From Alphaproteobacteria bacterium bin95 (GTDB lineage: Bacteria > Pseudomonadota > Alphaproteobacteria > Bin95), in assembly GCA_002238885.1 (NCBI GenBank), contig MPNF01000001.1, positions 1 to 33,336 of the forward strand: a stretch of 33,336 bases of DNA. The letters are read 5' to 3'. The translations under genes were made by a program, and so were the position numbers. Position 1 is the first letter of the stretch, and each line of letters opens with the position of its first letter. The notes below the pieces were generated by a model. It was given only the letters and a program-made list of their open reading frames with translations, was not told the DNA's origin and made no database searches. Positions 7,371 through 32,253 of the stretch are shown in pieces.

Positions 7371-7399
7371 TTGACTTCCAAATTCAACAGGATTCCCAT
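7371..7399 (+). promoter_or_regulatory. Putative promoter for the giant-gene operon
   Basis: TTGACT (7371-7376) is followed after 17 bases by TCCCAT (7394-7399), 34 bases before the ATG at 7433. The -35 is good and the -10 weak. It lies in the 175-base divergent gap, which is AT-richer than the coding DNA around it. Confidence 0.4.
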
Positions 7400-7432: not shown

Positions 7433-10400
7433 ATGGCCGATCCATTCGACACCGAGACCTCGCGAGGCGACGATCCGCTCGACCGCCCCGACCTCGAAGA
7501 CATCGACTACCACGAGGAATACGACCGGCCCGACTCCCTCGACCCTTCCGACCAGCAGGCCTCATCCCACACCAGTTTCATCATGGACGGCGCCAGGGTT
7601 CACGGCGTCACGCCCGGACAGGACGAGCACGACACCCGCGACATCTACGACGCCGACGACGCCACCGCCGGCATCGAAGCGATCGTCGATATCCTTGCCG
7701 GCCGTATCGCACCCGACAACTCACCCATTGCCAGCGACCGCGCCGAACTGCTCTGGGGCATGGTCCACGCCCTTGAATCCCAGTCCCGCAATCTCCAGTA
7801 CCGGATCGACAACGACCTGAAGGAGCACGAGGACCTCCGCTATGCCGAGGGCGTCAGCGAGACCAGCGACGAAGCGCTGGCCAAGGTCCTGCATCGACTG
7901 GTCAACTACAACGACCGCGCTGACGCATTCACCAGGCTCCGGCGAGTTGCGGCAAGCCGTTACCGCCACCATACCGGCGAAGTCTGGCGCTCGCGCCGGC
8001 GCACCGACACCGCCGCCGCCTCGCCGCGCATCGACATGCGCGATTTCAAGAAATCCCGCGAATGGCGCAACCAGCATGACGGAATCCGCGTCGCCGTCAC
8101 CGGAAGCCGCGAGGCTCCCTCCCCCGACTCCGTTCGCCAGGCCCTGGACGCTCTCCTGCGCACTCATGGCCGCGAGCTCGTCATCGTCCATGGCGGACAC
8201 AAGATCGGGATCGACGCGATCGCTTCGGAATGGGCCCGGCAGAACGACGTCCGGACTGCCGTCTATCGTCCCGACTTCAAGGACGTCACCCCCTATATCG
8301 CCCTCGCGCGCCGAAATCGCCAGATGGTCAAGGACGGCCTGACCTCCGTTCTCTCCTTTTCTCCGGCCAGGGTCGCCCAATCCTCCGACGTGGTCGTTCA
8401 GGCCCGGAAGGGGAACATTCCTGTCGAGATCGTCCGCCCCGGCAGCACCCAGACGCAGCGCCTCGCCTCGTCGACCGACTCCCTCGCCGCCTACCGGCCC
8501 GACCCTACCGCTGCCCGCCAGCGGTCCGAACCCGAACCGGCCGCCGAGCAGGACGAGCTGCGCAACACGCGCCAGGCCCGCCCGAACACATATTTCGACC
8601 AGGACGAAACCACCCGCGCCCTCAGGGACACGGTGCGCATTCTCGTCGACCGGATCACGCCCGACGGCTACCAGTTCGAGGACCAGCGCGAGGGGCTGCT
8701 CTGGGGCTTCGTCAACGTCTTCAACGAACAGACCCGGCGCCTCGACCGCGCCATCGCCGCGGTGAACCGCGACACCGAGATCGCCCCGACCGACAAGGAG
8801 GCCGCGCGCGAAGCCCTCGTGGAACGCAAGCATGTCTTCGAGGAGCTTCATTCCGCTGCATGCGCCCTCTATTTCGACGAGACGCGGCGCGTCTGGGACA
8901 CGAAGGCGCGCGACAAGCTTCCTCCCGTCACATCCACCAAGCTCGAATTCGAAGCCTTCGTGAAGAACCGCGAACGCACGCTTCATGCAGCCCAGGCTCC
9001 CGAAGGCGCCGTCGTCATCGTCCACGGCGACAAGATCGAAGGGAAGCCCGAACTCTTCCACTACGAACAGCTCTCCCAGCAACTCAACGCTATCCGCGAG
9101 AAGCACGGCGAGATCATCGTCGCCCACGGCGCCTACAGCCAGGGCGTCGACAAGCTCACCGCGATGTGGTGCGAAAACAACGGCGTCAGCCAGATCCAGT
9201 GCCCGCCGAAATACGCGCGCTACAAGAACTCCAACAACCCGGCCGCCCGCGCCGCGTTCGAGCGCAACCGCGAAATGTTCACCATGCCGAATGTCCGCGA
9301 GCTCGTCATATTCGGCGAGGCCGCCAGCGGCACCGCAGCCAACATGCTGGAGCTCGCCGAAAAAGCGAACCAGCAGGTCGCCCGGGACGCCCAATGGAAC
9401 GCCCGGCAGGATGCCGGTCCGCGAGCCGACGCCGCGCCTGCCCTCATCGACATCACGCGGACCCGCTTCGACCCCGCCCTGCCGGAGCGCACCGAGATCA
9501 ACGACCGCTATGTCGAGTTGCTGGAAGCAGCCGAGCAAAAGCCCCGGCTCATCCCGTACCAGGAGAACTTCGAGGAATTCCACGCTCTGGTCTCCCAGGC
9601 CATCTCCTCCCAGAACCAACCGCCTGCCTATACCCGCAAGCTCATCGACCTCGACAAGCGCCTGACGGCCGACGTCAAGTGCGCAGCGGAGATCCGGGAC
9701 GTTCAGAGCGCCATCGTCGATCTCAGCAACCAGCTCGGCCATTTCAACGGCGCCGTCCGGAACGCCGAACCCGGGTTCGCCGAGTCCACCCCCCACTACG
9801 ACGCCTTCGTCGACGACTGCACCCGCTGTCTCGAGCAATGGAACGCCCTTCAGGCCAACCCCGACATGCAGCCCCACCTGGAGCATCTCAACCAGCCCTT
9901 CCTGGACAGCCGCGTCGAAGGCCTGTCCGCGCATGCCCGCTATACCCCGCCGGCACAAACCGCAGCGCCGGAACTCGCAGAGGGTCCGCCGGCGCACGCG
10001 CAGCACCCCATCGTCAGCGAATATCGCCAGCTGCTCGAGCAGGCGAACAACAAGCCCGAGCTGCTTGCCTACCAGCCCACCTTCCAGGAGTTCCGCGAAA
10101 CGGTCCGCCGGGCCAGGGACGACGCCAACGAACATCCCGACATGGTCAAGGCCCTGGACCGGCTCTCAGCCACCCTGAACCTCAGCGACACCAACCGCTC
10201 GTATGCCAACACCCTTGCCAGGCGGCTGGTCGAGTCCACCAAGCAGGCCTTCGCCCTTGAGACATGGGCCGCCGACCAGCCCGGCCGCAAGATCCAGGAC
10301 TCCGACCAATTCGAGGCCTGGAGAAAGTCCACCGACACTCTCCTCGACGAACACCGCGCGATGAGCCGCGACCGCAGCCTGGCTCCGCACCTGAACGACC

Positions 10401-10558
10401 GCGAGGAGGTCCGGACCTTCTTCGACCGTCGCATCTCCTACATCTGCGAGGAACGCTTCGCCGCGCTGCCCAAGACGGACCCTACCCAGCAAAGGGCCCA
10501 GCAAGCCCAGAAAACCCGGGAAGCCGAGCAAGAGCAGAGCATGGGGATGAGCATGTAG
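7433..10558 (+). CDS. 1041-residue double-SLOG (DUF2493-like) protein with shared C-terminal module
   Basis: Order of parts: acidic N-terminus (1-70); helical domain A1 (about 75-185); SLOG domain 1 (about 217-310) with RVAVTGSRE, IVHGGHKIGIDAIASEWA and RRNRQMV; helical domain A2 (about 390-488); SLOG domain 2 (about 526-645) with VIVHGDKIEG, IVAHGAYSQGVDKLTAMW and FERNREMF; then two related helical repeats (about 690-835 and 858-1012). It ends QSMGMSM. SLOG domains are Rossmann-like folds that bind or process nucleotides and NAD-derived ligands in conflict and signalling systems. The C-terminal half is shared with the next gene, so the two probably act together. The start is supported by GGGAG nine bases upstream. 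A ligand sensor is likely; catalysis cannot be judged. Confidence 0.85.
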   Translation: MADPFDTETSRGDDPLDRPDLEDIDYHEEYDRPDSLDPSDQQASSHTSFIMDGARVHGVTPGQDEHDTRDIYDADDATAGIEAIVDILAGRIAPDNSPIASDRAELLWGMVHALESQSRNLQYRIDNDLKEHEDLRYAEGVSETSDEALAKVLHRLVNYNDRADAFTRLRRVAASRYRHHTGEVWRSRRRTDTAAASPRIDMRDFKKSREWRNQHDGIRVAVTGSREAPSPDSVRQALDALLRTHGRELVIVHGGHKIGIDAIASEWARQNDVRTAVYRPDFKDVTPYIALARRNRQMVKDGLTSVLSFSPARVAQSSDVVVQARKGNIPVEIVRPGSTQTQRLASSTDSLAAYRPDPTAARQRSEPEPAAEQDELRNTRQARPNTYFDQDETTRALRDTVRILVDRITPDGYQFEDQREGLLWGFVNVFNEQTRRLDRAIAAVNRDTEIAPTDKEAAREALVERKHVFEELHSAACALYFDETRRVWDTKARDKLPPVTSTKLEFEAFVKNRERTLHAAQAPEGAVVIVHGDKIEGKPELFHYEQLSQQLNAIREKHGEIIVAHGAYSQGVDKLTAMWCENNGVSQIQCPPKYARYKNSNNPAARAAFERNREMFTMPNVRELVIFGEAASGTAANMLELAEKANQQVARDAQWNARQDAGPRADAAPALIDITRTRFDPALPERTEINDRYVELLEAAEQKPRLIPYQENFEEFHALVSQAISSQNQPPAYTRKLIDLDKRLTADVKCAAEIRDVQSAIVDLSNQLGHFNGAVRNAEPGFAESTPHYDAFVDDCTRCLEQWNALQANPDMQPHLEHLNQPFLDSRVEGLSAHARYTPPAQTAAPELAEGPPAHAQHPIVSEYRQLLEQANNKPELLAYQPTFQEFRETVRRARDDANEHPDMVKALDRLSATLNLSDTNRSYANTLARRLVESTKQAFALETWAADQPGRKIQDSDQFEAWRKSTDTLLDEHRAMSRDRSLAPHLNDREEVRTFFDRRISYICEERFAALPKTDPTQQRAQQAQKTREAEQEQSMGMSM

Positions 10559-10655: not shown

Positions 10656-13600
10656 ATGCCCGACTACACCACCGGCGATATCTTCACCTCAGGCTGCCAG
10701 GCGATCGTGAACCCGGTAAACTGCGTCGGCGTCATGGGCGCCGGGCTCGCCCTGCAGTTCAAGCGCCGGTTCCCGGACAACTTCACATCCTACGCCGACG
10801 CCTGCCGCGCCGGTTCCCTCGCGCCCGGCCGCATGCATGTCTTCGACACCGGCGCCGAGCACCCGCGTTACATCGTCAACTTCCCCACCAAGCGCCACTG
10901 GCGCGACCCCAGCCGGCTCGACGACATCGCCCGGGGACTGGATGCGCTCGACCGCGTCATCTCCGAACACGGCATCCGGTCCATCGCGATCCCGCCCCTC
11001 GGCTCCGGTCTCGGAGGGCTCGCCTGGGATGAAGTACGCCCTCTCATCGCGGACCGGCTTGCCCATCGCGAGGATCTCGAACTCATTGTCTACGAGCCGC
11101 ACCGTTCGATGACGAAATCCGGGCTGTCAACGCCGTCTCCCTCTACCCTCCTCTGGGCCGGCATCGGCGCCCGCAAGACGCCCCAAACCGTCCTTCAGGA
11201 CATGACCGCCCTTTCCCGGTCCCTGGCCGAGGCCGGCTGGCATCTTTCGTCCGGAGGCGCGCACGGCGCCGACTCCGCTTTCGCCTCCGGCACTCCTGCC
11301 GCCCAACGCACAGTCTGGCTGCCCTGGCGTGGCTACAACGACCTCTCAGGTCCCGATTGCCACGTCCCCTCCCGCGAGCGAATGCAGCAATGCCTCGCAA
11401 TAGCCGAACGCCTCCATCCCGCATGGCACAAATGCTCCCAGGGCGCCCAAAAGCTTCACGCCCGCAACGTCGCCATTCTTCTCGGACCCAGCCTGGATCG
11501 ACCGGTAGACGCTGTCGTCTGCTTCACCGAAAACGGCGCGATATCGGGCGGAACCGGCATGGGCCTGCGGATCGCGGCCGAACATGGCATCCCCGTCTTC
11601 AACCTCGGCTCCATGACCATGCACGCGGCATGGGACGGGCTTCAGCAGCTTCGCCATACTCTCGCCGCCACCCACACCGACATGGCGAAAACCGCTGCGA
11701 CCCTCGTTCCCACCGATCCAAAGTCCATGGCCCGGGTCGTGCACCTTCGCGACGCGCCGCCCGACGCCATCCGCATCGATCGCCGGACCCAGTGGGGCAA
11801 TCCCTTCCGGATAGGACCCGACGGCACCAGAGAAGAGGTAATCGCCAAATACCGCGACGACCTCTGGAAACGCATCCACGCAGGCAACATCGATCTGGCC
11901 GAACTTGCCTCCCTCAACGGAAAGAGCCTGGCTTGCCACTGCGCCCCCCTACCATGTCACGGCGATGCCCTCGCCGAGGCCGCAGCATGGGTCGTCGCCA
12001 ACAAGCACCAGACCACCGAGACCAACCTCGCCACAGCTTCAGCACCGTTGCCGTCGTCTGCTTCCCTGCAGACATCCGCGCGCACCTACCAGGCAGCCGA
12101 AGCCTGCGTCTTCCGTTTCACCAAGGCGGACTGGGGCGTCTTCAGCAACTTCGCTTCCCTGCCAAACCCTGTCTCCGCAGCCGGGCAAACCTGGCCCACA
12201 TCCGAGCACCTGTACCAAGCCGCCAAGTTCCGTCTGTCCCCGCACGTGCAGCATCAGATCGCCGCAGCCCCCTCCGCCCGCGACGCCGCCAAACTCGGCC
12301 GCAGCCGAACCAACAAGCCCGACGGCGACTGGATACCCCGGCGCACCGACGCCATGCGCTGGGTCATCCGGATGAAGCGAGAGGCGAACCCCGAGCTCAT
12401 CGACTCCGCCCTTGAACGCACCGGCGACAGACCGATCGTCGAATACTCCGGACATGACACCTTCTGGGGAGCTAAACCCGACGGCGCCAGTCTCGTCGGC
12501 CGCAACGTCCTCGGCCGCCTCTGGATGGAACTCCGCGAGCAGATTCGCGACGGCGATCCCCGTGCCCGGGCCGCGGCATGGGACAACCCCCTCACGCCCC
12601 TCGCCGTTGCCCCCACCGACCCTGCACAGGACGAACGCAACCTCATAAACCGGACCTATCGCGCCCTGCTCGCCGCGTCGAACAACGACCCGCACCTCAT
12701 CCCCTACCAGGACGATTTCGACGACTTCCGCTCCATCCTTTCCGGCGCCATCGAAACCGAAGGCCAGCCGCCGCCATATATGGAAAAGCTGCGCGAACTC
12801 GACCGCCGCCTGCAGGCCGATATCGAGCGCAAGGAGACGCTCACCGCAATCCAGCGAGACACCATCGACCTCAACGCCCAGCTCTCCTGGCTCAACCGGG
12901 CCGCAGAGGCCTCGAACAGCACCGCGATCTTCGATCTCCCCGACTACCCCGCTTTCGTCCAGGACGCCGCCAAATGCCTCGACCGCTGGACCGCATTCCA
13001 GGCCGACCCCGAAACCCGCCCGCATATCGAACGCCTCAATGACAAGGTTCTCGACACCCGTGTCTGTCTGCTGTCCATGCACGTCCCTTCACCCGAACCC
13101 GCAATGACCCCGAGGACCGCCGATCGCCACGATATTTCGTCCCCTTCGCAACACCCGATCGTCCGGGAATACGCCGCGCTGCTCCAGCAAGCTCACAACA
13201 AGCCCGAGCTGCTCGTCTACCAGCCGGCCTTCCACGCACTCCGGGAAAACGTCCACCGCGCCAGGAACGACCCCGCCCAGCATCCCGACATGGCCGAGGC
13301 GCTCGGACGTCTCTCCGCCCAGCTCGAACGAAGCCACGAAGCCCGGGCGACCGTCGCGACCCTCAGACGCCGGCTCACCGAGTCAGCCAACGAAGCGCTG
13401 GACATCGACAGCTGGGCCGCAGAGCAGGGCAACAAGACCGTCCACGACTCGCCCCGCTACGACGCCTGGCGAACCAATGCCGACGCCCTCATCGACGAAT
13501 ACCGATCAATGGCGCGCGACAGCACCCTGGCGCCGCATGTCAACGACCGCGAGGAAGCCCGCCAATTCCTGCAGCGCCGCGTCGCATTTCTCTCCGACGA

Positions 13601-13700
13601 CCGCTTCGCCCGCATTCCCATGCTGCAGTCCTCCGAAGAAGAAGCCCTGCACATGGCCCGCGCCGAGGACCTCGAACAGGGCATGAGCATGAGCATGTAG
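10656..13700 (+). CDS. 1014-residue macro / SLOG / DUF4326 / NADAR fusion protein
   Basis: Residues 1-150 are a DarG-like macro domain: NPVNCVGVMGAGLALQFK, NFPTKRHWR (K79 matches the catalytic lysine region of DarG) and IPPLGSGLGGLAW. Residues 165-320 are a DprA-like SLOG domain (WAGIGARKTP, LSSGGAHGADSAF, WLPWRGYN, LHARN, FTENGAISGGTGMGLRIA). Residues 360-447 are DUF4326 (VVHLRDAP, WGNPFRIG, LACHCAPLPCHGDALAE). Residues 482-635 are NADAR (FSNFASLP, TWPTSEHLYQAAKF, FWGAKPDG, GRNVLGRLW). Residues 660-1014 are two helical repeats as in the upstream protein, ending QGMSMSM. Macro and NADAR relatives remove ADP-ribose from thymidine and guanosine of nucleic acid. I infer a multi-substrate ADP-ribose eraser or sensor. 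It lies 97 bases after its partner gene. Confidence 0.88.
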   Translation: MPDYTTGDIFTSGCQAIVNPVNCVGVMGAGLALQFKRRFPDNFTSYADACRAGSLAPGRMHVFDTGAEHPRYIVNFPTKRHWRDPSRLDDIARGLDALDRVISEHGIRSIAIPPLGSGLGGLAWDEVRPLIADRLAHREDLELIVYEPHRSMTKSGLSTPSPSTLLWAGIGARKTPQTVLQDMTALSRSLAEAGWHLSSGGAHGADSAFASGTPAAQRTVWLPWRGYNDLSGPDCHVPSRERMQQCLAIAERLHPAWHKCSQGAQKLHARNVAILLGPSLDRPVDAVVCFTENGAISGGTGMGLRIAAEHGIPVFNLGSMTMHAAWDGLQQLRHTLAATHTDMAKTAATLVPTDPKSMARVVHLRDAPPDAIRIDRRTQWGNPFRIGPDGTREEVIAKYRDDLWKRIHAGNIDLAELASLNGKSLACHCAPLPCHGDALAEAAAWVVANKHQTTETNLATASAPLPSSASLQTSARTYQAAEACVFRFTKADWGVFSNFASLPNPVSAAGQTWPTSEHLYQAAKFRLSPHVQHQIAAAPSARDAAKLGRSRTNKPDGDWIPRRTDAMRWVIRMKREANPELIDSALERTGDRPIVEYSGHDTFWGAKPDGASLVGRNVLGRLWMELREQIRDGDPRARAAAWDNPLTPLAVAPTDPAQDERNLINRTYRALLAASNNDPHLIPYQDDFDDFRSILSGAIETEGQPPPYMEKLRELDRRLQADIERKETLTAIQRDTIDLNAQLSWLNRAAEASNSTAIFDLPDYPAFVQDAAKCLDRWTAFQADPETRPHIERLNDKVLDTRVCLLSMHVPSPEPAMTPRTADRHDISSPSQHPIVREYAALLQQAHNKPELLVYQPAFHALRENVHRARNDPAQHPDMAEALGRLSAQLERSHEARATVATLRRRLTESANEALDIDSWAAEQGNKTVHDSPRYDAWRTNADALIDEYRSMARDSTLAPHVNDREEARQFLQRRVAFLSDDRFARIPMLQSSEEEALHMARAEDLEQGMSMSM

Positions 13701-13710
13701 ACTGCCACCC

Positions 13711-15222
13711 ATGCCCCAGGAACGCCTCTCTCCCCAGGAACTTTCCAGAATGCTGGCCCAGCAGACCGAGAGCGTCTGCCGCCACTATCTCCCCGCCGGC
13801 AAGAAATCCGGCAACAGCTGGGTCGTCGGCAACCTCTTCAACGAGCCAGGGCGCTCCCTCACCGTCTGCATCAAGGGAGAAGCGAGAAAGCTCGGCCGCT
13901 GGACCGACCATTCCACCCAGGAATACGGCGATCTTCTCGACCTGATCCGCATCAACCGCGGTCACGCGAGCCTCGGCCCGGCCATGGCCGAGGCCCGCCA
14001 TTTTCTCGGCATCGCCAACCACGCCCCGACCCGCGCCGCAAGGCCGAATGGCGCCCGCCCGGCGCCCCCCGCACCGCCGCCCGACGAAAAGACAACCGAT
14101 CCGCCCGCTACCCCGTCCGAGCACAGCTCCCGACTGCTATGGGACCGCTGCCAGTCCCTTCCCGGCACCCTCGGCGAACTCTACCTCCACTCCCGGTCCA
14201 TCGACGACGCCGACCACCCCGCGCTCCGCTTCGACAAGGCGCTGCAATACCGCGAAGACACCCACATATCCCACTGGCCGGCCATCGTCGCCGCGCTAAC
14301 CGACCTCGACGACCATGTCCTCGCCGTTCACCGGACCTGGCTCGAACCCGGGGGCCTCCGCAAGGCCGACCTCCCGTCGCCCCGCAAGATGCTCGGCTAC
14401 TCGAAGGGCGCCGGCGTCCGGTTCCGGAACAACCTGCTTCCCGACTGCGACATCGTCATCGGCGAAGGCATCGAGACCGTCCTTTCCATCCTCCAGGCGC
14501 TCCTGGAATCCGCCGGCATCGCCACCCTTTCCGCGACCCTCATGCCGCGCATCCTCGTTCCGCCCACCAACGGCCGCATTCTCATCGCCGCAGACCGCGA
14601 TCCCGCCGGCTACGCCGCCGCCCTGAAACTCAAGAGCCGCCTCGAAGCCGAGAAGCGAACCGCCGAACTCATCCTGCCAAAGGATGCCGACTTCAACGAC
14701 GACCTCGTGTCACTCGGCCCCGACGCCCTGTTCGCCCATATCAGCGTCCAGCTCCGCCAATCGTCCAGAGCGCTACCGACGGCCCGACCGCACGAACCCC
14801 CACCCACTCCAACGTCCGAGCCCGTCCTCGCTCTCGCACCCACCGTGCCGTCCATCGACACCGCCGACTACCATCTCATTCCCCTGCAGGACATCGACCG
14901 CTCGAACCTCATGAAGGTCACGGCCTTCCAGGGCATCCCGCGACCGCACCAGGTACTTGCAGCGGCTTCCGCCTATGCCGATATCGCGCGGATCGCCGCC
15001 GACCGGTCGGGTATAACCAGGGTTCTGATCCTTCCCGCCAGCTACATGGCCGCCCCACTCGAGCGCGCCCTTCGCCGACACAATCTCGAACCCGTCCACC
15101 CCTATATCGAGACCGTCTACACCCGCCACGACGACGGCAACGTCTCGACCGCCAAACAGGTAACAGGCCTTATTCCGGCGCTTCCCACCGAAGACAACCC
15201 ACCCACCGACAGCGAATTCTGA
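13711..15222 (+). CDS. Toprim-domain plasmid primase-like protein (DUF7146 type)
   Basis: 503 residues, starting 10 bases after the macro/NADAR gene stop. The N-terminal third (about 20-90) looks like the primase zinc-binding region but without cysteines (GKKSGNSWVVGNLF, GRWTDHSTQEYGDLLDLI). The Toprim domain has the acidic motif IGEGIETVLS with E252 (and E255), and the DxD motif AADRDPAG with D295 and D297. About 140 extra C-terminal residues follow, of unknown role. Relatives are common on alphaproteobacterial plasmids and ICEs and are thought to make primers for conjugal or plasmid replication. Tight spacing places it in the same operon as the ADP-ribose block. Confidence 0.85.
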   Translation: MPQERLSPQELSRMLAQQTESVCRHYLPAGKKSGNSWVVGNLFNEPGRSLTVCIKGEARKLGRWTDHSTQEYGDLLDLIRINRGHASLGPAMAEARHFLGIANHAPTRAARPNGARPAPPAPPPDEKTTDPPATPSEHSSRLLWDRCQSLPGTLGELYLHSRSIDDADHPALRFDKALQYREDTHISHWPAIVAALTDLDDHVLAVHRTWLEPGGLRKADLPSPRKMLGYSKGAGVRFRNNLLPDCDIVIGEGIETVLSILQALLESAGIATLSATLMPRILVPPTNGRILIAADRDPAGYAAALKLKSRLEAEKRTAELILPKDADFNDDLVSLGPDALFAHISVQLRQSSRALPTARPHEPPPTPTSEPVLALAPTVPSIDTADYHLIPLQDIDRSNLMKVTAFQGIPRPHQVLAAASAYADIARIAADRSGITRVLILPASYMAAPLERALRRHNLEPVHPYIETVYTRHDDGNVSTAKQVTGLIPALPTEDNPPTDSEF

Positions 15223-15304
15223 AGGCTCAGTGGAGCAGGGAAGGCGCGATCCGCAGCCGGAGAGCCGGCGCGGGCGCCCTCTTCCTGCATCCATGGAGCC
15301 ATTC

Positions 15305-17620
15305 GTGAACGCACCCGCTTCCCAGCCCGACCTTCGGGCCATCCCCCTTGCCTGCCTCGTCCTCGCCCCAGAGAACGTCCGGGCGACTCCGCCGAGCCCG
15401 GCCGACCAGGCCCAGCTCACCGCCTCGATCAAGGCACACGGCCTCCTCGAAAGCCTTGTCGTGCGTCACGAAGACGACGCCGGCGACGGAACGGACCGGT
15501 TCGCCGTCGTAGCAGGGGGCCGCCGCCTCGCAGCGCTCAACCTGCTTGCCGACGACGGCGCCATTTCCACCACCCACCCCGTCCCGTGCCAGGTCGTCTC
15601 GAACGACAACACGGCCGAACTCTCGCTCGCCGAGAACGTCATGCGCATCCCGATGCACCCGGCCGACCAGGTCGTCGCGTTCAAGGCTCTCGCCGACACC
15701 GGCTCCACCTCCTCCGCGATCGCGGCCCGCTTCGGCGTCACCGAACGTCTCGTCGAACAGCGCCTGCGCCTCGGCAACGCCGCCCCGCAGCTGCTCGACG
15801 CCTATCGGGCCGACCGGTTCGACCTCGCCGTGCTGCAGGCCTTCGCGATCACCACCGACCACGAGCAGCAGCTTGCGGCCTGGAACCAGGTTGCCAACCA
15901 GGGCTACCGCGTCACCGCCTGGCAGGTGAAACGCATCCTCACCGAAGACCCCGTGCCCGCCAACATCTCCATCGCCCGCTTCGTCGGCGTAGACACCTAT
16001 GAGAGCGCCGGGGGCGCCGTCTTGCGGGACCTCTTCGCCGACCAGCACGAAAACGGGGTCTGGCTCGAGGACCGCACCCTCCTCGCCGAACTCGCAACCA
16101 CGAAGCTCCGCACCGTCGCAGACGAACTCGCCCAGCGCTGGAAATGGGCCGAGGCCGTCCTCGACACCGACTGGAGCACCACCGCGCAATACGGTCGCGT
16201 CCACCCCGTCCCCTCCGAAGCGACGGACGAGGAAGCGACGGAAATGCAGCGCATCGAGGCCCGCCAGCACGAGCTCGCCGACCTCGACGACGACCAGTGG
16301 ACCGAAGAGCTCATCGATGAAGCCGAGACCCTCGAGGCCCGCTATATCGCCATCGAGGCCACTATCGAGGCCCGCGCTTTCTTCCGCCCCGAAGACATGG
16401 CGATTGCCGGATGCATCGCATCGATCTCCCGCGACGGCACCCTTGAGGTCATTCGGGGCCTCGTGCGCACCGAGGACATTCCCGCCGACCGCGCCGCCAG
16501 CAATTCCGCCGATCCGGACCAGCCCCCCGTCACCACACCCGCGGGCTCCACCCCGGTCACCACCCCGGCTGCCGCACCACCCGACAAGGCCGCGCAGGCC
16601 CGGAAAGACGCCGGCGTCGGCATCGGCCTCGGCGACGACCTGCGCGCGATCCGCAACACGCAGGTCAAGCTGCACCTCTCCGGCAACTTCGACGCCGCCT
16701 TCGACCTCCTCCTCTTTCAGATGGCGCGAGCCGTCTTCACCCAGGCCTACCAGCCCGACTCCCTCGACATCGCTTTCCGGCCGACCGCCGACCGGCCTTT
16801 CGTGCGCGGCAACGACGACGATTTCGCGGACTGGAACCCCGCCGAAGCGCAGCTCGACGACGTCTCCCATCTCCGTTTCGACTGGATGGAGCTCGACGAC
16901 GACGGCGAAGCCTTCGCAGCCATGCAGGCCCTCGCCGACAGCGACAAGCAGGCCCTCTTCGCGGCTGCCGTCGCGCGCACGGTCAAGGGGCAGCTCGCCT
17001 TCGAGCATCAGGCCCGCCCCGAGCTCGAAGCAACCGTCGCCCGGCTCGATATCGATTTCGCCGCCGCCACCCGCCCGACGGCCGACATGTACTGGTCCCG
17101 CATCCCGAAGAAGCGGATCCTCGACATTGCCCGAGCCACGGTCGGTCCCGACTGGGCAACCGGCCACGGCAAGTTCAAGAAGCCCGAACTCGCCAGGGCG
17201 ATGGAAACCGCCTTCGCCGCAGGCGACACACCCCTCGGCGTAACCCCGGAGGCGCACAGCGCAGCACTGGCCTGGGCACTTCCCGGCTTCCGCCCCTACG
17301 ACGACGGCGCACTGCCGGACCCCCTGAACGACGAACCCGGACCGGAGACCCGGAGCAGCTCCCCTGCCAAACCGGCTGACCCCCGGCCCGATAGCCCTCC
17401 GGCCGAGCGCACGACCGCCGCGGACCACGAACCGTCCCCGCAGCCCGCCGACCCTGCGCACGACCGCAACGGCAGCGAGACCAACGACGTCATGGCCGCC
17501 ATCGACGCCATGAACCAGGTCCCCACCGCGGACGGAAGTCCCCGCGTCATCTTCGCGACGATCGCCGAACCGGCCGGCGCGAACGACGACGACCTCCCCG
17601 AGTTTCTCCGCAACGCCTGA
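15305..17620 (+). CDS. Large ParB/RepB-type protein
   Basis: 771 residues from the GTG at 15305, chosen because TGGAG ends six bases upstream; ATG at 15293 and GTG at 15230 are in-frame alternatives. Motifs are AGGRRLAAL (residues 70-78), LAENVMRIPMHPADQ (about 108-122) and a HTH (SSAIAARFGVTERLVEQRL, about 136-154), as in ParB/Spo0J/KorB. The rest is a long acidic region, a Pro/Thr-rich linker near 410-440 and a conserved block around 450-670. This long form is typical of plasmids and ICEs and differs from the two short ParB-like proteins at the left. It probably binds DNA; whether it segregates or regulates is open. The tail is low-complexity, rich in Pro, Asp and Ala. Confidence 0.88.
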   Translation: MNAPASQPDLRAIPLACLVLAPENVRATPPSPADQAQLTASIKAHGLLESLVVRHEDDAGDGTDRFAVVAGGRRLAALNLLADDGAISTTHPVPCQVVSNDNTAELSLAENVMRIPMHPADQVVAFKALADTGSTSSAIAARFGVTERLVEQRLRLGNAAPQLLDAYRADRFDLAVLQAFAITTDHEQQLAAWNQVANQGYRVTAWQVKRILTEDPVPANISIARFVGVDTYESAGGAVLRDLFADQHENGVWLEDRTLLAELATTKLRTVADELAQRWKWAEAVLDTDWSTTAQYGRVHPVPSEATDEEATEMQRIEARQHELADLDDDQWTEELIDEAETLEARYIAIEATIEARAFFRPEDMAIAGCIASISRDGTLEVIRGLVRTEDIPADRAASNSADPDQPPVTTPAGSTPVTTPAAAPPDKAAQARKDAGVGIGLGDDLRAIRNTQVKLHLSGNFDAAFDLLLFQMARAVFTQAYQPDSLDIAFRPTADRPFVRGNDDDFADWNPAEAQLDDVSHLRFDWMELDDDGEAFAAMQALADSDKQALFAAAVARTVKGQLAFEHQARPELEATVARLDIDFAAATRPTADMYWSRIPKKRILDIARATVGPDWATGHGKFKKPELARAMETAFAAGDTPLGVTPEAHSAALAWALPGFRPYDDGALPDPLNDEPGPETRSSSPAKPADPRPDSPPAERTTAADHEPSPQPADPAHDRNGSETNDVMAAIDAMNQVPTADGSPRVIFATIAEPAGANDDDLPEFLRNA

Positions 17621-23448: not shown

Positions 23449-26400
23449 ATGATCGACGCCCAGCCAGCGCCCGCCGCCTCCCCGCACACCCCTCTTCCCG
23501 CCTCTGGCGGCATCGCCAACTCCCGCTCCGAACGCGCCGCCGCAATCTTCTCCGCGGCCCAGCGCCTCGTCCCGAATCTTGCCTCCGGCCGGGCTCTCGA
23601 CGCTCCCACCCTGCGCATCGTCATGACCGATGCCTTCGGCGCGTCAGACAGCGACGGCGCCTGGCTCTGGAAGGACGCCTACGAAGCCGCCGAAGCCGCT
23701 GTCATCATCTTCCTCCACCGATACGCCCGGGCACTTCAACAGCGCGCCGCCGCCGAAGGCCCCGGCAAGATGCTCTCCATGCTCGAAGCGCTTGCCGCCC
23801 TCGAGCCGTCCCATTCACGGCGCTCCGAGGACCAGGTCCGCCTGCAGCAGTTCTCCACCCCGCTGCCGCTTGCCTACGCGACCGTCAAGGCCGCCCACAT
23901 CTCGCCCGACGATATCGTTCTCGAACCCTCCGCCGGCACCGGAATGCTGGCCGTCATGGCCCGGATGAGCATGGGCGACAACGCAGGGTCCCACCTGCAC
24001 CTCAACGAGATCGGCGCCACCCGGGCCGCCCTTCTGCGCCTTCTCTTCCCCGACCTTCCGGTCAACGCCGTCAACGCCGAAACCATTGCCGACCGGCTGC
24101 CCGGGATCCGGCCGACCGTCGTCGTCATGAACCCGCCCTTCTCCGCCACCCCCGCCGGCTCGCCCACCACCCCCCCGCCATTCTCGGCCACTCCCGGCGT
24201 CTCGACAACCAGCCACCAGGCAGACCTGCGCCATGTCCGGTCCGCATTCTCCATGCTCCCCTCCGGAGGCCGCCTGGCTGCAATAACCTCCGCCCATTGC
24301 ACCCCCGGAGACCGCGCCTGGCAGAAAGCCTTCGATAACGCCGATCCCCCCGCCCGCGTCCTCTTCACCAGCATCGTCGACGGCCGCGTCTACGCCCGGC
24401 GCGGAACCAGCTTCGACACCCGCCTCACCGTCCTCGAGCGCAGCGACCAGCCTTCCCTTCCTGTCGACCCCGCAGCCCGCGCCCGGTCCGCCGCCGAACT
24501 CCACGACGCCTGCATGGCCACCATCCCCGCTCGCCTTCCCATCGTCACCGCATCGCCGCGTCCGACCCTCGGCGCCGACCTCTTCGGCCACTCCCTCTCC
24601 CCGGCTCCTGCGTCCAACCCCGACTCCACCAATTCCGACAACGACAACGAGCCTGCCTCGCGCTGGGGCCCTGTCGCACCATTGGCCATCGCCGGTCCCG
24701 CAGCCGACCCCAACACCGAATCCGGCAACAACGACGCTTCTGGCGCCTACGAACCCTGGCGTCCCGGTCCCATCCGCATTCCGGGTGCTGCACCCCATCC
24801 CACGCCCCTGGTCCAGTCATCCGCCATGGCCGCGGTTCCCCACCCTCTCACCGCCCACCGCCCGCTTCTGCCAACCCGCATCGTCTCCGAAGGCCTGCTG
24901 TCCGACGCCCAGCTCGAGAGCATCGTGCTTGCGGGCGAAGCGCACTCCCGCAACCTCCCCACCTGGTTCCGCATCGGCTCCGGCTGGGAAACCGTCCATC
25001 TCTGGTCCACCGACGACAACGCCAATGCCGTCCCGGAAGGCCATCCAGCAACCATCGCCGACTCCGACGAGACCTTCTCCGACCCGGTCCAGTTCCGGCG
25101 CGGCTGGATGCTCGGCGACGGCACCGGATGCGGCAAGGGCCGCGAAGTCGCCGCGATCATCCTCGACAACTGGCTGAACGACCGCACCCGCGCCCTCTGG
25201 CTCTCGGAATCCGACAAGCTTGTCGAAGACGCCCGCCGCGACTGGACCTCTATCGGCGGCCGCGAGAGCGACGTCGTCCCCGTCTCCAGATACCGCCAGG
25301 GCGCCCCTGTCCAGCTCAAGGACGCCGTTCTCTTCTCCACCTACGCCACCCTCCGCTCACCCTCCCGCCAGGGCAAGCGCTCCCGCCTGGAACAGATCGT
25401 CGAATGGCTCGCCGGCAGCCTCGACGAAGCGGACCGCCACGCCTTCGACGGCGTCATCGTCTTCGACGAGTCCCACGCAATGGCCAACGCCGCCGGCGCC
25501 AAGAGCAATCGCGGCGCCGTCAAGCCATCCCAGCAGGGCAGGGCAGGCCTTCGCCTGCAGAACGCGCTCCCGAACGCCCGCATCGTCTATGTCTCCGCCA
25601 CCGGCGCCAGCACCGTCCCGGGCCTGGCCTATGCGTTCCGCCTCGGACTCTGGGCCGCCGGCGAAACCCCCTTCGCCGAACGCACCGAGTTCGTCGCCGC
25701 CATGGAGGCCGGAGGCGTCGCCGCAATGGAAGTCGTCGCACGCGACCTCAAGGCTCTCGGCCTCTACCAGGCTCGCGCTCTCAGCTACGCCGGCGTCGAG
25801 GTCGATATCCTCGAACACCCGCTCACCCCGGAGCAGCACCGCATCTACGATTCCTACGCCGACGTCTTCTACATCATCCACAACAACCTGCAGGACGCAC
25901 TTCGCGAGAGCGGCATCATGCAGGGCGACGACACCCTCAACCGCAACGCGAAGTCCGCGGCCCTCTCCGCCTTCGAAGGCATGAAGCAGCGCTTCTTCGG
26001 CCATCTCCTCACCGGAATGCAGTGCCCCACCGTGATCCGCTCGATCCAGAGCGACCTGGACGCCGGCCGTTCCGCCGTCATCCAGCTTGTCTCCACCGGC
26101 GAGTCGCTCATGGAACGCCGGATAGCCGAAATCCCCACCTCCGAGTGGAACGACCTGTCGATCGACCTCACCCCAAGGGACGGCGTCCTCACCTACCTCC
26201 AGTACGCCTTTCCGGTCCAGCTCCAGGAAGCCTTCACCGACGACGAAGGCAACCTCCTCAGCCGTCCCGCCGTCGACGCGGACGGCATGCCGATCCTCTG
26301 CCAGGCCGCCATCCAGCGCCGCGAAAAGCTGATCGAGCAGATTGCCGCCCTCCCGCCGATCCCGACCGCGCTCGACCAGATCGTCCACCATTTCGGCCAC

Positions 26401-28108: not shown

Positions 28109-29134
28109 ATGCCTGAACCGATCAACGTCTCCGCCGACTACTCGCTGAAGCCGAGCGAGCTCGCCGATACCCTCTCGCTGCTTGTCGAGGCCCGCGAGCC
28201 CTGCATGGTCTGGGGCCAGCCCGGAATCGGCAAAAGCGACATCGCAGACGCCGTCGCCGCCGCCACCGGCCGCCGCTACATCGACGTCCGCGCCCTGCTG
28301 CTCGATCCCGTCGACCTGCGCGGCATCCCCTGGCGCGACAAGAACGACCGCACCCGCTGGGCCTCGCCCGAGTTCCTTCCCCCGTCGAACGACAACGGCC
28401 GCTTCCTCATCAACCTGGAGGAACTTCCCTCGGCCGTGCCCATGGTCCAGGCCGCGCTCTACCAGCTCGTCCTGAACCGCCGCATCGGCGAATACGAACT
28501 GCCCCCGGGCGCGTCCCTGATCGCCTGCGGCAACCGCGAGAACGACCGGGGCGTCGTCCACCGCATGGTCGCCCCGCTGGCATCGCGCTTCGTCCATCTG
28601 GAGCTCAAGTCCGACCACCGGGACTGGTGCGCATGGGCCGCCGGCGCCGGCATTGCGCCCGAGGTCATCTTCTTCATCTCCTGCCGCCCCGAACTCCTCA
28701 ACGACTTCGACCCCCAGTCGAAGGAGAAGGCCTTCGCCTGCCCCCGGACCTGGCACAAGGTCTCCAACATCGTGAACCAGCGCGCCGACCTCGACCCGAA
28801 CATCGAGCGCGCACTCTTCCGCGGCGCCGTGGGCGAAGGCCCCGCCGTCGTGTTCTCCGCCTTCCTGAAGATCTGGCGCGAGATCCCGCACCCGGCCGCC
28901 GTGATCGCCGATCCGGACAATGCCGAAGTCCCGACCGAATCCGACGTCCTCGTCTCCCTCTGCGGCGCGCTCTACAACATCGCCGACGACACCAACTTCG
29001 ACGCGATCGTCGCCTATGCCCGGCGCCTCCGCCGCGAGATCGGCGAGTTCCTCGTCACCATGTCCCTGAAGCGCGATCCCAGCCTGCAGAAAACCGCGGG
29101 CTTCATCCGCTGGGCCGCAACCCGCACTCAGTAA
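28109..29134 (+). CDS. MoxR-type AAA+ ATPase
   Basis: 341 residues. Walker A is GQPGIGKS (36-43). The Walker B position reads LINLEEL (about 100-106), with Glu in place of the usual Asp. DVRALLLDPVDLRGIP, RRIGEYELPPGASLIACGNREND and the arginine-finger region PLASRFVHLEL are typical of the MoxR/CobS group. These ATPases work with VWA-domain partners as chaperones that insert metals or remodel complexes. The VWA and DUF3150 genes follow at 30934 and 30035, separated from it by a short remnant and a membrane-protein gene. The ribosome site is weak, and the upstream hairpin may govern expression. Confidence 0.88.
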   Translation: MPEPINVSADYSLKPSELADTLSLLVEAREPCMVWGQPGIGKSDIADAVAAATGRRYIDVRALLLDPVDLRGIPWRDKNDRTRWASPEFLPPSNDNGRFLINLEELPSAVPMVQAALYQLVLNRRIGEYELPPGASLIACGNRENDRGVVHRMVAPLASRFVHLELKSDHRDWCAWAAGAGIAPEVIFFISCRPELLNDFDPQSKEKAFACPRTWHKVSNIVNQRADLDPNIERALFRGAVGEGPAVVFSAFLKIWREIPHPAAVIADPDNAEVPTESDVLVSLCGALYNIADDTNFDAIVAYARRLRREIGEFLVTMSLKRDPSLQKTAGFIRWAATRTQ

Positions 29135-29460
29135 GCCTCCGACCCAAGCCTGTCCACCAGCAACCGAAAGGAAAAGGGCGATGAAATTCGCGATCGACAA
29201 GCGGCTGTTCGGACAGGCGGTCCGCTCCGCGCACGCCATCGTGCAGATGCCGGTGCGCGTCTGACCGCTCCGGCGCTTCCGTCTCCCCTGTCCCGGCCCT
29301 GGCGGCTTCGATGCCGTCAAGGTCGGCAAGGAGCTTGTCGGCGTCGCGCCCGACCTCGATCGACCCCGCTTCTGAAGGGAAGGAAAGCCGGATCCGGACG
29401 AACCTGTTGAATCCAGAATCCGGCGCGTCCTTGAACCCGTGCGCAAGAGGGAATAAGTCA
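29135..29460. other. 326-bp gap with gene remnant
   Basis: Apart from the 27-codon frame at 29181-29264, no gene with a ribosome site is found. The frame of that remnant stays open for another 36 codons after its TGA, to 29375, which may be chance in GC-rich DNA. The right end carries AGAGGGA for the gene at 29461. The gap separates the MoxR gene from its expected partners and looks like a deletion or insertion scar. Confidence 0.5.
29181..29264 (+). pseudogene. Possible internally deleted beta-clamp (dnaN-like) remnant
   Basis: A strong purine-rich site (AAAGGAAAAGGG) precedes a 27-codon frame, MKFAIDKRLFGQAVRSAH then AIVQMPVRV and stop. The first part resembles the N-terminus of DNA polymerase III beta subunits (MKF.I.R..F..A), and the last part their usual C-terminus (..Y..MP.RV). 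This would fit a gene that has lost about 340 internal codons. The match is short and judged from memory of the family, so it could also be an unrelated small peptide. Confidence 0.35.
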
Positions 29461-29910
29461 ATGCCCGACATGACCCCGGCAGAACTCCAGACATTCGCCG
29501 TGACCGATCCCGAAGCGGCAACCGCAATGGCTACCATCTCGATGGCCGAGTTCACGTCCGCTTTGGCCAACTCCACTGCTGCTATGGCGGTTTCCACAGC
29601 CTCCCTTGTCGATGTCACCATTGCCCTGGTCGCCGCCAGCCTCTTCGTCGGCCTCCTGCAGGTCGGCGTCGTCTGGCGCGGCATCGACAAGATGGTGGAA
29701 GCCGGCGAGAAACGCGACAAACGCTTCCAGGAGTCCATGGATGCCGAAGCAAAACGGCACAAGGAAGCCATGGATGCGCTCGCTGCCGAACGCGCCGCTA
29801 CCGAAAGTCGCCACAAGCAGGCCATGGAAGCCGACGAACGGCGCCACGAGCAGAACATGAAGGCCCTCGATGCCCTCATCCGGAATACCGCTCCGGGAGC
29901 CCCCGCCTAG
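29461..29910 (+). CDS. Membrane-anchored charged coiled-coil protein
   Basis: 149 residues from the ATG at 29461, with AGAGGGA eight bases upstream; the frame is open further left but without a start signal. An Ala/Thr-rich N-terminus leads to one membrane helix (DVTIALVAASLFVGLLQVGVV, about residues 51-71). A highly charged helix follows, full of Lys, Glu, Arg and Ala (EAGEKRDKRFQESMDAEAKRH, HKQAMEADERRHEQNMKALD). It resembles the protein at 2434 in plan but not in sequence. Its position between MoxR and DUF3150 genes may reflect a later insertion. Function is unknown. Confidence 0.65.
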   Translation: MPDMTPAELQTFAVTDPEAATAMATISMAEFTSALANSTAAMAVSTASLVDVTIALVAASLFVGLLQVGVVWRGIDKMVEAGEKRDKRFQESMDAEAKRHKEAMDALAAERAATESRHKQAMEADERRHEQNMKALDALIRNTAPGAPA

Positions 29911-29969
29911 CCGGTTCCCGCCGGCGCCGCAGCCGGCCGCCCCGCCGACATCGCTGTAAACGCCAATCG

Positions 29970-29998
29970 CGGGCCCTGCGCAAGCAGCGGCCCGTTTT
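29970..29998 (+). terminator. Putative intrinsic terminator before the DUF3150 gene
   Basis: CGGGCCCTGC (29970-29979) pairs with GCAGCGGCCCG (29984-29994), with one bulged G around a GCAA tetraloop, and TTTT follows. It lies 60 bases after the preceding stop and 37 bases before the next start, so it could terminate the first transcript or act as an attenuator for the second. Confidence 0.65.
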
Positions 29999-30034
29999 CG
30001 CATCCCCCATCCCCGACATCATCGGAGACCCCCC

Positions 30035-30934
30035 ATGGACCTCACCCGGGACGCCATGCTCGTCAGCCTGCGCATCAACAACTGGTCCGGGCGCCGCTAC
30101 GACCGCGAAGCCAGCCAGGACGTCACCGCGCGAAACGACGCCGACCCGAGCGCCGGCCGCTTCAACAAGCGCCTTCTGCCGAAAACCGCCTTCGCCGACA
30201 TGACGAAGACGATGAGCAAGGCCCGCACCCTCCACTACGAGAACTCCCTGCCCTGGGACGACACCGGCGCGCGCCTCCTCACGGTCGCGAATTACGACCA
30301 CTACACCGCCACCATCGACGAACTCTCCGAACAGCTCGTCCGCGAACGCAATGTTTTCATCGCCGAATACGGACCCAATATCGACCAGGCACGCATCGGC
30401 CTGGGCGGACTTTTCCGTATCGAAGACTATCCGAGCCAGGACTCGCTCAGGCACCGCTTCGCCATCCGCTACCGCATCGTGCCGGTCCCGGACGCCGAAC
30501 ATTTCATCGCGGACCTCGCCGCCGGCGATGCGGACCGCGTCAAGCGCGACATCGAGAACCTCGTCCAGGAACGCCTCGAAGACGCGATCACCGACCTCTA
30601 CAAGCGCCTTGGCGAAGCCGTGGACCACGTCGTCCAGCGCCTCGACGTCGACGCCGAAGGCAAGCCGCTGATCTTCAGGAACAGCCTGATCGGCAACATC
30701 CGCGACCTGGTCGATATCGTGCCGCGGCTCAACATCTTCGGCGACCAACGCCTCGCCCAGCTCTGCCAGCAGGTCAAGGACCGCATCGCCAGCGTCGATC
30801 CCGACGAGCTCAGGCCATCGTCCTCGTTCAACCCGGCCACGCGCCAGCGCGTCAAACGCGACGCCGAGGACCTCGCCGCGAAGTTCGCCGGCTACTTCGC
30901 CCCGCCCGGCGCCGCCCTCAAGGAAGCCGCCTGA
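30035..30934 (+). CDS. DUF3150-like protein
   Basis: 299 residues (MDLTRDAMLVSLRINNWSGRRYD...). The N-terminal INNWSGRR, RFNKRLLP and the ARTLHYENSLPWDDTGARLL stretch match the DUF3150 type found beside MoxR ATPases and VWA proteins in plasmids and phages. The central part is helical (VKRDIENLVQERLEDAITDLYKRL). The stop overlaps the VWA start (TGATG), so both are probably made together as partners. The start is the first ATG after a C-rich stretch, with CGGAGA about eight bases before it. Biochemical function is unknown; an adaptor between ATPase and VWA protein is an inference from synteny. Confidence 0.65.
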   Translation: MDLTRDAMLVSLRINNWSGRRYDREASQDVTARNDADPSAGRFNKRLLPKTAFADMTKTMSKARTLHYENSLPWDDTGARLLTVANYDHYTATIDELSEQLVRERNVFIAEYGPNIDQARIGLGGLFRIEDYPSQDSLRHRFAIRYRIVPVPDAEHFIADLAAGDADRVKRDIENLVQERLEDAITDLYKRLGEAVDHVVQRLDVDAEGKPLIFRNSLIGNIRDLVDIVPRLNIFGDQRLAQLCQQVKDRIASVDPDELRPSSSFNPATRQRVKRDAEDLAAKFAGYFAPPGAALKEAA

Positions 30935-32253
30935 TGACCTCCCGCGCCCTCAACGACGCCGCGACACGCCTCAGCAGGTGCGTCACGGCCCTGCTCCAGG
31001 ACCAGCCCTTCTTCGGCAACCTGACCCTTCGCCTGCCTCTCCGGCCGGACCTCAGCCGCCAGACCATCGCGAGCGACGGCAAGGAGATCCGCTTCTCGCC
31101 CGAATGGGTGACCGATACCGAAGCCGACCTCCTGAAGACCGCTCTGGCCCGCATCGTCACCGCCTGCGCGCTGAAACACCACACACGCCGGCGAAACCGG
31201 GATCCGCAGGTCTGGCAGCTCGCCTCGCAACTCGTCACCCATCCCCTCCTTCAGGATGCCGGCTTCACCCTTCCCGAAGGCGCCGAGTGCTGGCCGGACT
31301 GCAGCGTCGAGGAGGCCTACAACCGGCTGATCGAAAACGATCCCGGCAACCCCGATCCCACTGCCGATCCCGACAACGCGCAGCCTCCGGCCGACGCCAC
31401 CGGCAACTCGCCCTCCCCACCCGGTCCGGACTCCGGGTCCGACGACGACGACCCGACCGACCCCGGCCCCGAAGACACTTCCAGCGACGCCGGCGACGGC
31501 GACGGCACCTCCCATTCTTCCGGGACCAGCTTCGATCCCTCCGGCACCGGCGAGGTCCTCGACGCCGACGAGCGCGCCGGCGCGACCCGGCCTGCCGATC
31601 TCGCGATCGAGGAGCAGACCTGGGACGAGGCCATGCACCAGGCCGCCCAGCTTGCGCGCGTCCAGGGCAACCTTCCCGGCGCCATCCAGGAAACCGTCGA
31701 CAACGCCCACAGGAGCGTTCTCGACTGGCGCTCGCTCCTGCGCCGCTACCTCACCGACGCCGCAAGCGCCGACTATTCCTGGAGCGCCCCCAACCGCCGC
31801 TATATCGACAGCGGCCTCTATCTGCCCTCCATCCGCTCCGAGGGCATCAACGAGATCGCCATCGTCATCGACACCTCGGCCTCGCTGCCGTCTCGCGTCC
31901 TCGACGAATTCTGGGCCGAGATCCGCGAGATCGCGACCGACGTCCGCCCGGAGACCCTCATTCTCCTCCAGGTCGACTCCGTTCTCCAGGACGCCTGCGA
32001 ATACGCCGCCTCCGACCTGCCTGACAGCATCACGCTCAAGGGACGCGGCGGCACAGACTTCCGCCCGGGCTTCGAATGGCTGGAACAGCAAGGCCGCCAT
32101 CCCGGCTGCTGCATCTATCTCACCGACATGGAGTGCGACAGCTATCCCGACGCCGAGCCCCTCTTTCCGGTCATATGGGTCAACTACGGCCCAACCCCGG
32201 ACGAGTACTGCACCGAGCCCTGGGGCGAGCGCATCGACATGCATCTTGCCTGA
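30934..32253 (+). CDS. VWA-domain protein, DUF2201-like, with degenerate metallopeptidase motif
   Basis: 439 residues. The N-terminal domain keeps the family text around CALKHHTRRRNRDPQVW and LLQDAGFTLPEGA. The place where relatives have the metal-binding HExxH reads RIVTA (73-77), so peptidase activity is unlikely. A long acidic linker, rich in Asp, Pro, Gly and Ser (about 130-215), follows. The VWA-like domain (about 305-420) has an intact MIDAS: DTSAS (D313, S315, S317), RGGTD (T374) and D398 in YLTDME. It should bind a divalent ion and a partner protein, most simply the MoxR ATPase at 28109. The start overlaps the DUF3150 stop. CobT and ViaA are functional analogues. Confidence 0.82.
   Translation: MTSRALNDAATRLSRCVTALLQDQPFFGNLTLRLPLRPDLSRQTIASDGKEIRFSPEWVTDTEADLLKTALARIVTACALKHHTRRRNRDPQVWQLASQLVTHPLLQDAGFTLPEGAECWPDCSVEEAYNRLIENDPGNPDPTADPDNAQPPADATGNSPSPPGPDSGSDDDDPTDPGPEDTSSDAGDGDGTSHSSGTSFDPSGTGEVLDADERAGATRPADLAIEEQTWDEAMHQAAQLARVQGNLPGAIQETVDNAHRSVLDWRSLLRRYLTDAASADYSWSAPNRRYIDSGLYLPSIRSEGINEIAIVIDTSASLPSRVLDEFWAEIREIATDVRPETLILLQVDSVLQDACEYAASDLPDSITLKGRGGTDFRPGFEWLEQQGRHPGCCIYLTDMECDSYPDAEPLFPVIWVNYGPTPDEYCTEPWGERIDMHLA

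Follow-up and report, generated by a model that had tools for sequence, protein, structure and literature searches.

The window considered here is the whole of contig MPNF01000001.1 (33,336 nucleotides) from the genome bin Alphaproteobacteria bacterium bin95, designated G000 below. It carries a gene for a single large polypeptide, here called the polyprotein, in which a DarG-type macro domain, a DprA-like SLOG domain, a DUF4326 domain and a YbiA-type NADAR domain are followed by a C-terminal helical module with resemblance to TrwC/MobF relaxases. The features of this gene, and those of the neighbours that bear on its function, are collected in Table 1.

Table 1. Features of the polyprotein gene and its surroundings in the window.
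Feature	Position	Strand	Basis
Polyprotein gene, Macro-SLOG-DUF4326-NADAR-C-terminal module, 1014 aa	10656..13700	+	Open reading frame (ORF) with ATG start; Pfam/NCBIfam/PHROG/PADLOC matches
DarG-type macro domain, residues 1-150, N22 and K79 kept	10656..11105	+	PDB DarG macro 5m3i/5m31, E 5e-45/7e-44; NF048014, PDLC02990
DprA-like SLOG domain, residues 163-340	11142..11675	+	PHROG 768; kin of stand-alone SLOG proteins
DUF4326 domain, residues 367-441, motif ACHCAPLPCHGD	11754..11978	+	PF14216, E 8.5e-24
NADAR domain, YbiA-type, E517/K524/E625	12123..12548	+	PF08719, E 5.4e-23; alignment with E. coli YbiA 2b3w, E 2e-22; own-genome search
C-terminal module of polyprotein, residues 655-1014, two helical copies, relaxase-like	12618..13697	+	Common to about a dozen proteins; TrwC relaxase matches; hhalign; AlphaFold2 pLDDT 83
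Extreme C-terminal tail AEDLEQGMSMSM, candidate part of a type IV secretion system (T4SS) translocation signal	13662..13697	+	Tail conservation; relaxase-derived scoring matrix
Upstream partner: two YAcAr/YspA SLOG domains and C-terminal module, tail …QSMGMSM	7433..10558	+	Pfam YAcAr E 6e-28, two stretches; 43-44% module identity
C-terminal module of upstream partner	9482..10555	+	Shared-module profile
Toprim/DUF7146 primase-like protein, 10 bp downstream of polyprotein gene	13711..15222	+	Pfam; collinear in sister elements
Backbone block: MoxR-type ATPase, DUF3150, DUF2201	28109..32253	+	Collinear with G007:C234, 80-95% protein identity

Pfam matches above cut-off were obtained for Macro (residues 18-129, E = 1.6e-21), DUF4326 (367-441, 8.5e-24) and NADAR (490-631, 5.4e-23). 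The SLOG region matches the Pfam model DNA_processg_A at residues 167-336 under its cut-off (1.8e-4), and PHROG 768 (‘DprA-like’) at residues 166-326 with E = 2.7e-49; it is also ~60% identical to stand-alone SLOG proteins from related genomes, although a PDB sequence search with the SLOG and DUF4326 region returned nothing significant. The NADAR region gives a further match under cut-off to NF053876 (‘NADAR family anti-phage protein’, E = 4e-38), a name we could not trace in the literature. The four-domain match is not attributable to chance, and these searches bear out the domain order that an original prediction had read from the sequence without database searches.

Two DarG models reach only residues 3-155 of the polyprotein (E = 3.5e-68 and 4.2e-69). 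NF048014 is covered at profile positions 3-155 of 338, scoring 230 against a cut-off of 250, and PDLC02990 at positions 3-152 of 329, such that only the N-terminal half of each profile is matched and the C-terminal DarT-binding domain of DarG is not present in the polyprotein. Within the macro domain, N22 and K79 have counterparts in the aligned DarG macro structures. In the NADAR domain, E517, K524 and E625 line up with E. coli YbiA, and the family landmarks FWG and GRNVLG are found at positions 603 and 615. The catalytic Glu and Lys lie seven residues apart, as is required in the DarT1-linked NADAR (DarG1). By the criterion of PMC11125620 and as judged from alignment, however, the domain is of YbiA type rather than DarT1 type, because its last strand (WMELRE) carries Glu625 and not the Asp of the DarT1-linked form.

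DarG macro domains reverse the ADP-ribosylation of thymidine, and NADAR proteins that of guanine. YbiA-type NADARs hydrolyse guanine-linked ADP-ribose (ADPr) in vitro (PMC11543638, PMC11125620), although E. coli YbiA gave no rescue from DarT1 toxicity in cells (PMC11125620). The original prediction had proposed that both eraser activities are combined in this protein on the strength of K79 and the NADAR motifs, and alignment places the expected residues in both domains; to that extent the predicted dual chemistry is supported. Its comparison with antitoxins of DarT-type toxins is incomplete, in that the DarT-binding half is absent and the NADAR is of YbiA type. Nor is the domain mix without a described counterpart: DUF4326, SLOG, Macro and NADAR fusions of viruses have been proposed to counter immunity based on nicotinamide adenine dinucleotide (NAD) and ADPr (Iyer et al. 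2022, PMC9503650), and the polyprotein, as a fusion of these four families on an invasive element, fits that description. Finally, the earlier domain layout is sound to residue ~635, but it overlooked the C-terminal relaxase-like module (~650-1014), which is the strongest clue to how the protein would act, namely in a recipient cell.

These last ~360 residues are not a linker. They form a two-copy module with a conserved end (…GMSMSM), for which an AlphaFold2 model based on 14 sequences shows two all-helical units with a predicted local distance difference test (pLDDT) score of 83. Neither Pfam (residues 640-1014) nor a PDB sequence search with the module gave a match of significance. The module of the double-SLOG protein encoded immediately upstream is 43-44% identical to that of the polyprotein, and the module recurs in some ten further multidomain proteins from this genome and genus, behind N-terminal parts that differ (SLOG-DUF4326, SLOG-NADAR, YAcAr or unassigned). 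Every complete two-unit copy is located at the extreme C-terminus, where an Arg/Glu-rich stretch precedes a tail of the form SMSA, SMSI, GMSM, SMGM or GMKL. All 14 module sequences have the tail Met, and an M[SG]x end is found in 12 of these 14 tails compared with one of 328 background tails. Among 385 alphaproteobacterial genomes the module is confined to the genus of the window, the lone other match being marginal (E = 8.6e-4), and it had no match in the 72,556 plasmid records of PLSDB or the 50,697 phage records of INPHARED. A scan of contigs with a divergent module alignment gave no conserved pattern, and the SLOG-NADAR alignment was used instead.

Relaxases of the TrwC/MobF family are abundant in the genus, with three matches in the genome of the window and 23 in congener G002. 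MobA/MobL relaxases, which were also considered, are absent from the bin and rare in the genus, and TrwC is the relevant family. A hidden Markov model (HMM) of the window-type module, searched genome-wide, found 11 places outside module proteins, 10 of which fall in TrwC relaxase genes or their contig-truncated copies (E = 1e-10 to 1e-4; best match to a reversed ORF, E = 0.12). The eleventh (G003:C149:842-952, L205; E = 1.9e-6) lies in a 61-codon frame that can be assigned to neither a relaxase nor a module protein. Profile-profile comparison of the module with the relaxase C-terminal region by hhalign gave a probability of 66-76% (E = 2e-5 to 6e-5) and a score of 46.5, compared with a maximum of 32.5 in 40 block-shuffled controls and 15-17 in reversed controls. 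An AlphaFold2 model of the relaxase-type module resembles the window module in helix order through its first half. A profile built from the relaxase side matched artefacts in a reversed-database control, apparently antisense frames of its own members, and was not used.

The homology between cargo and relaxase is remote for the polyprotein but direct for sister proteins (L068 and L070). In two sister plasmids, G005:C5 and G006:C229, the relaxase and a SLOG or SLOG-NADAR protein resemble each other over the C-terminal ~190 residues, at E ~1e-44 to 1e-48. Relaxase ends such as SREEGGGMSVL, SREEDTGLSMS, KQDRGISL and ERSEGGGIKL are comparable to the module tails. When 14 module-protein tails were scored with a position-specific scoring matrix (PSSM) built from relaxase tails only, 13 ranked within the top 3.4% of the 328 background tails and three exceeded the entire background; the single low-scoring tail is that of an overlapping alternative-frame ORF and not a true module end. 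The seven top background tails include two relaxase C-terminal fragments, two SLOG/NADAR polyvalent proteins and two neighbours related to the Uma2 family. Such putative Uma2-family nucleases lie on the reverse strand beside the polyvalent proteins (L070:12038-12988 and L068:10833-11552), end in the relaxase-like ADRGLSL, and are themselves candidates for delivered nucleases.

All genes of the window that are recognised by homology lie on the forward strand: two ParB proteins, a serine recombinase, the two module proteins, the Toprim primase, a ParB-like protein, a HATPase protein, RadC, a C5-methylase (Dcm), a strawberry-notch helicase, a MoxR ATPase, DUF3150 and DUF2201. The mobile-element setting proposed originally is supported. 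No virion gene was recognised in the window. Contig G007:C234 of a congener opens with the last part of a module-protein gene (…SEQAEEQYSISA), continues with Toprim, MoxR (95% identical), DUF3150 (86%) and DUF2201 (80%), and further along encodes a DarG-like macro protein (64%) and a MobF relaxase. The rest of G007:C234 is collinear with a second contig of the window’s genome, C304, the relaxase region being 80% identical. Contiguity is suggested only by the homology to G007:C234, which ends at 7144 for the window and restarts at 7372 for C304; a search for shared end k-mers joining the two contigs found no overlap. Because both are collinear with successive parts of G007:C234, the window contig (C261) and C304 are plausibly parts of one conjugative element. 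The DarG-like macro genes near the MobF relaxases (G000:C304:2248-2685 and G007:C234:8947-9384; 64-65% identity) stand alone, with no DarT.

On four related elements (L220, L233, L234 and L238), SLOG, Macro-NADAR or NADAR, and DUF4326 are encoded by separate neighbouring genes that lack the module and tail; on a fifth (L230), only SLOG and DUF4326 were seen as separate genes. Fused or separate, the activities therefore go together, and only the fused form has the relaxase-like end. The strawberry-notch helicase of L220 is 66% identical to that of the window, and an ORF with a relaxase-like tail lies nearby. Viral contigs yielded relatives of the macro domain only, mostly stand-alone DarG-like proteins, and none with the four-domain layout. 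The named relatives are metagenome-assembled genomes that carry the label Alphaproteobacteria, Rhodospirillales or Defluviicoccus sp. Several apparently derive from sponges (e.g. Spongia_Bin9), and COS and RHO are taken, as a guess, to be sponge codes. One congener encodes a DarT-DarG pair (L240, G002:C261) and DarT was not found in the others; a threat of this kind therefore exists within the genus. The DarT domain of this pair lies at the C-terminus of a frame of 701 codons; the protein may be a longer fusion, or the frame may simply be extended.

Given its relaxase-like tail region, the polyprotein probably travels into the recipient cell to undo defences directed against incoming DNA. We propose, with a probability of roughly 55%, that it is a polyvalent ADPr- and NAD-nucleotide-processing cargo of a MobF-type conjugative element that is delivered by the T4SS to erase DarT-like modification, NAD-derived immune signals, or both. 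The parts of this proposal that can be read from sequence are the four predicted domains with their catalytic residues, the shared module and tail, the relation to relaxases of the genus and the backbone synteny. In the proposed pathway, the coupling protein, for which G000:C129 carries a candidate, would recognise the module or tail as it does the relaxase, and the polyprotein would pass through the T4SS either together with the transferred strand or before it. Once in the recipient, the macro domain would remove ADPr from thymidine and the NADAR domain from guanine, while SLOG and DUF4326 may bind or degrade NAD-derived signals such as cyclic ADPr variants and ADPr phosphates, such that DarT-like or TIR/NADase-type defences would fail to block establishment of the element. 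The counter-defence role that was first suggested for this protein thus remains the best guess. A wider claim, that conjugative elements of this genus inject ready-made ADP-ribosylation erasers and NAD-signal enzymes by means of an undescribed helical module related to MobF relaxases, with an S/G-M-S-x tail, falls in our estimation just short of an even chance.

Several observations weigh against our proposal and should be kept in mind. There is no relaxase or T4SS gene on the 33-kb contig, and its linkage to conjugation comes via homology and synteny only. The relation of the window module to relaxases is remote, at 15-16% identity in the hhalign comparison described above, and the tails differ in detail (SMSA versus GxSx or GISL). 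Partial module copies are present near the N-termini of a few module proteins (L071 and L072, residues ~22-240), and copies within the C-terminal halves of relaxases are not always at their ends. Foldseek searches of the module against PDB and BFVD gave no significant match and hence no known delivery domain. Furthermore, MobF relaxases that have been studied (TraI) carry their translocation signals internally (PMC8406263), so the signal does not have to reside in a C-terminal tail. Lastly, as the original prediction also noted for the sequence in view, no DarT was found in the window, and the same is true of its 75%-complete bin, so no matching target defence is in sight.

This last result also favours a different main target, namely diffusible NAD-derived immune signals or RNA-repair intermediates (cyclic ADPr, ADPr-phosphates) on which macro and NADAR would act in place of ADP-ribosylated DNA. 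The DUF4326 and SLOG partners, the argument of Iyer et al. (2022), who proposed action on small molecules for the phage versions, and the failure of E. coli YbiA to counter DarT1 in cells point in the same direction. Opposing it are the specifically DarG-like character of the macro domain (PDB DarG macros at E = 5e-45, with K79 and N22), given that macros of this type are thymidine-ADPr hydrolases, and the DarT-DarG pair in one congener. We regard this target as a serious possibility at somewhat under even odds; it is compatible with delivery and overlaps our preferred explanation.

It is rather unlikely, though by no means negligible, that the polyprotein remains in its host cell (the donor, or a new host in which it is expressed) and acts there as an antitoxin to several toxins or an enzyme that clears ADPr, with the module serving to dock or scaffold the relaxosome, plasmid DNA or partners and not as a secretion signal. 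The module copies near N-termini and inside relaxases would suit such a role, as would the unfused, tail-less SLOG, Macro-NADAR and DUF4326 genes of similar elements. However, the extreme tail is near-invariant and resembles relaxase tails, and cargo with a different C-terminal region likewise has that region and its tail in common with its own relaxase.

DNA viruses are the best-known source of the four-domain mix, and phages have polyvalent proteins, which might suggest a phage or phage-plasmid whose module is a virion-packaging region. We consider this highly improbable, as the relatives of the module are relaxases, the module is unmatched in the phage and plasmid records searched, the collinear contig bears a MobF relaxase, and the backbone has ParB, serine recombinase, RadC, Dcm and strawberry-notch genes with no recognised virion gene. 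Least probable, and already disfavoured, is the view of the polyprotein as a simple antitoxin to a DarT-type toxin encoded elsewhere than on this contig. The DarG-like macro and the unseen sequence beyond the contig ends could be cited for it, but it is at odds with the missing DarT-binding domain, the lack of DarT in G000 and in all congeners except G002, and the two visible flanks of the gene, which encode a SLOG protein and a primase and no darT.

As delivered cargo, the polyprotein can be compared with several known systems. It shares four fused families with the viral ADPr proteins (PMC9503650), but here they occur on a conjugative-type bacterial element in one chain of 1014 residues, with a DarG-type macro and a relaxase-like module and tail. 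In phages and conjugative elements, the polyvalent proteins are large and multidomain, and their delivery together with DNA has been predicted (Iyer et al. 2017, PMC5512222). The polyprotein has their trait of several effector domains in one mobile-element protein; in contrast, no ArdC-N or zincin peptidase domain was found in it, its content is Macro-SLOG-DUF4326-NADAR with a relaxase-related end, and its predicted delivery is inferred from the module and tail only. The closest parallel for such an end is VbhT of the Bartonella plasmid pVbh, in which a FIC toxin is joined to a relaxase-derived BID domain and co-translocated with plasmid DNA during conjugation (PMC5675462). Both are cargo enzymes with a relaxase C-terminal module (terminal reassortment), but translocation has been shown for VbhT and is predicted for the polyprotein, which has erasers in place of a toxin and a MobF relaxase-type helical module. 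A BID domain was looked for in this module and not detected, with no Pfam match and no BID structure among the Foldseek and profile matches; because Foldseek gave nothing significant, neither BID nor any other known fold is supported.

DarG, the DarTG2 antitoxin, has the same N-terminal macro residues (N22 and K79/80), and differs in its DarT-binding C-terminal domain and adjacent darT. YbiA shares E517, K524 and the last-strand E625 with the polyprotein, whereas the DarT1-linked NADAR, with its last-strand Asp, is of the other type. Proteins of the F plasmid pED208 are moved into recipients and suppress the recipient response (PMC8406263, PMC11288057), as is predicted here, although those proteins (ParA/B, SSB and PsiB) and that plasmid family are different. 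Thus, the domain combination is already known and relaxase-derived ends on cargo are a known principle, but the union of erasers with a MobF-relaxase-type module appears to be new.

Plasmids face the immunity of a recipient before their own genes are expressed, and a pre-loaded eraser of DNA ADP-ribosylation or NAD alarms would act at once. If the wider claim on conjugative elements of this genus is true, it would be a first case of antitoxin-type (eraser) effectors co-delivered by conjugation against ADP-ribosylation or NAD-based immunity. The shared module also makes it possible to look for cargo delivered by conjugation in MobF systems as a class, and the question of whether relaxase-derived ends mark injected proteins generally is opened to testing.

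Other observations concern the surrounding genes. The upstream partner is an equally plausible delivered protein, as a sensor or hydrolase of NAD nucleotides. Three ParB-like proteins are encoded on the one element (102-1010, 1228-2124 and 15230-17620). The strawberry-notch protein (23449-27987; 1512 aa, AAA_34/Helicase_C_4) has an N-terminal methyltransferase-like region and is kept on related elements. Lastly, contig G000:C286 (L061 and L102) of the same bin represents a second related element with a like operon plan, in which YAcAr2-module, 559-aa-module and SLOG-DUF4326-module genes are accompanied by Toprim, strawberry-notch helicase, Dcm and HATPase genes.

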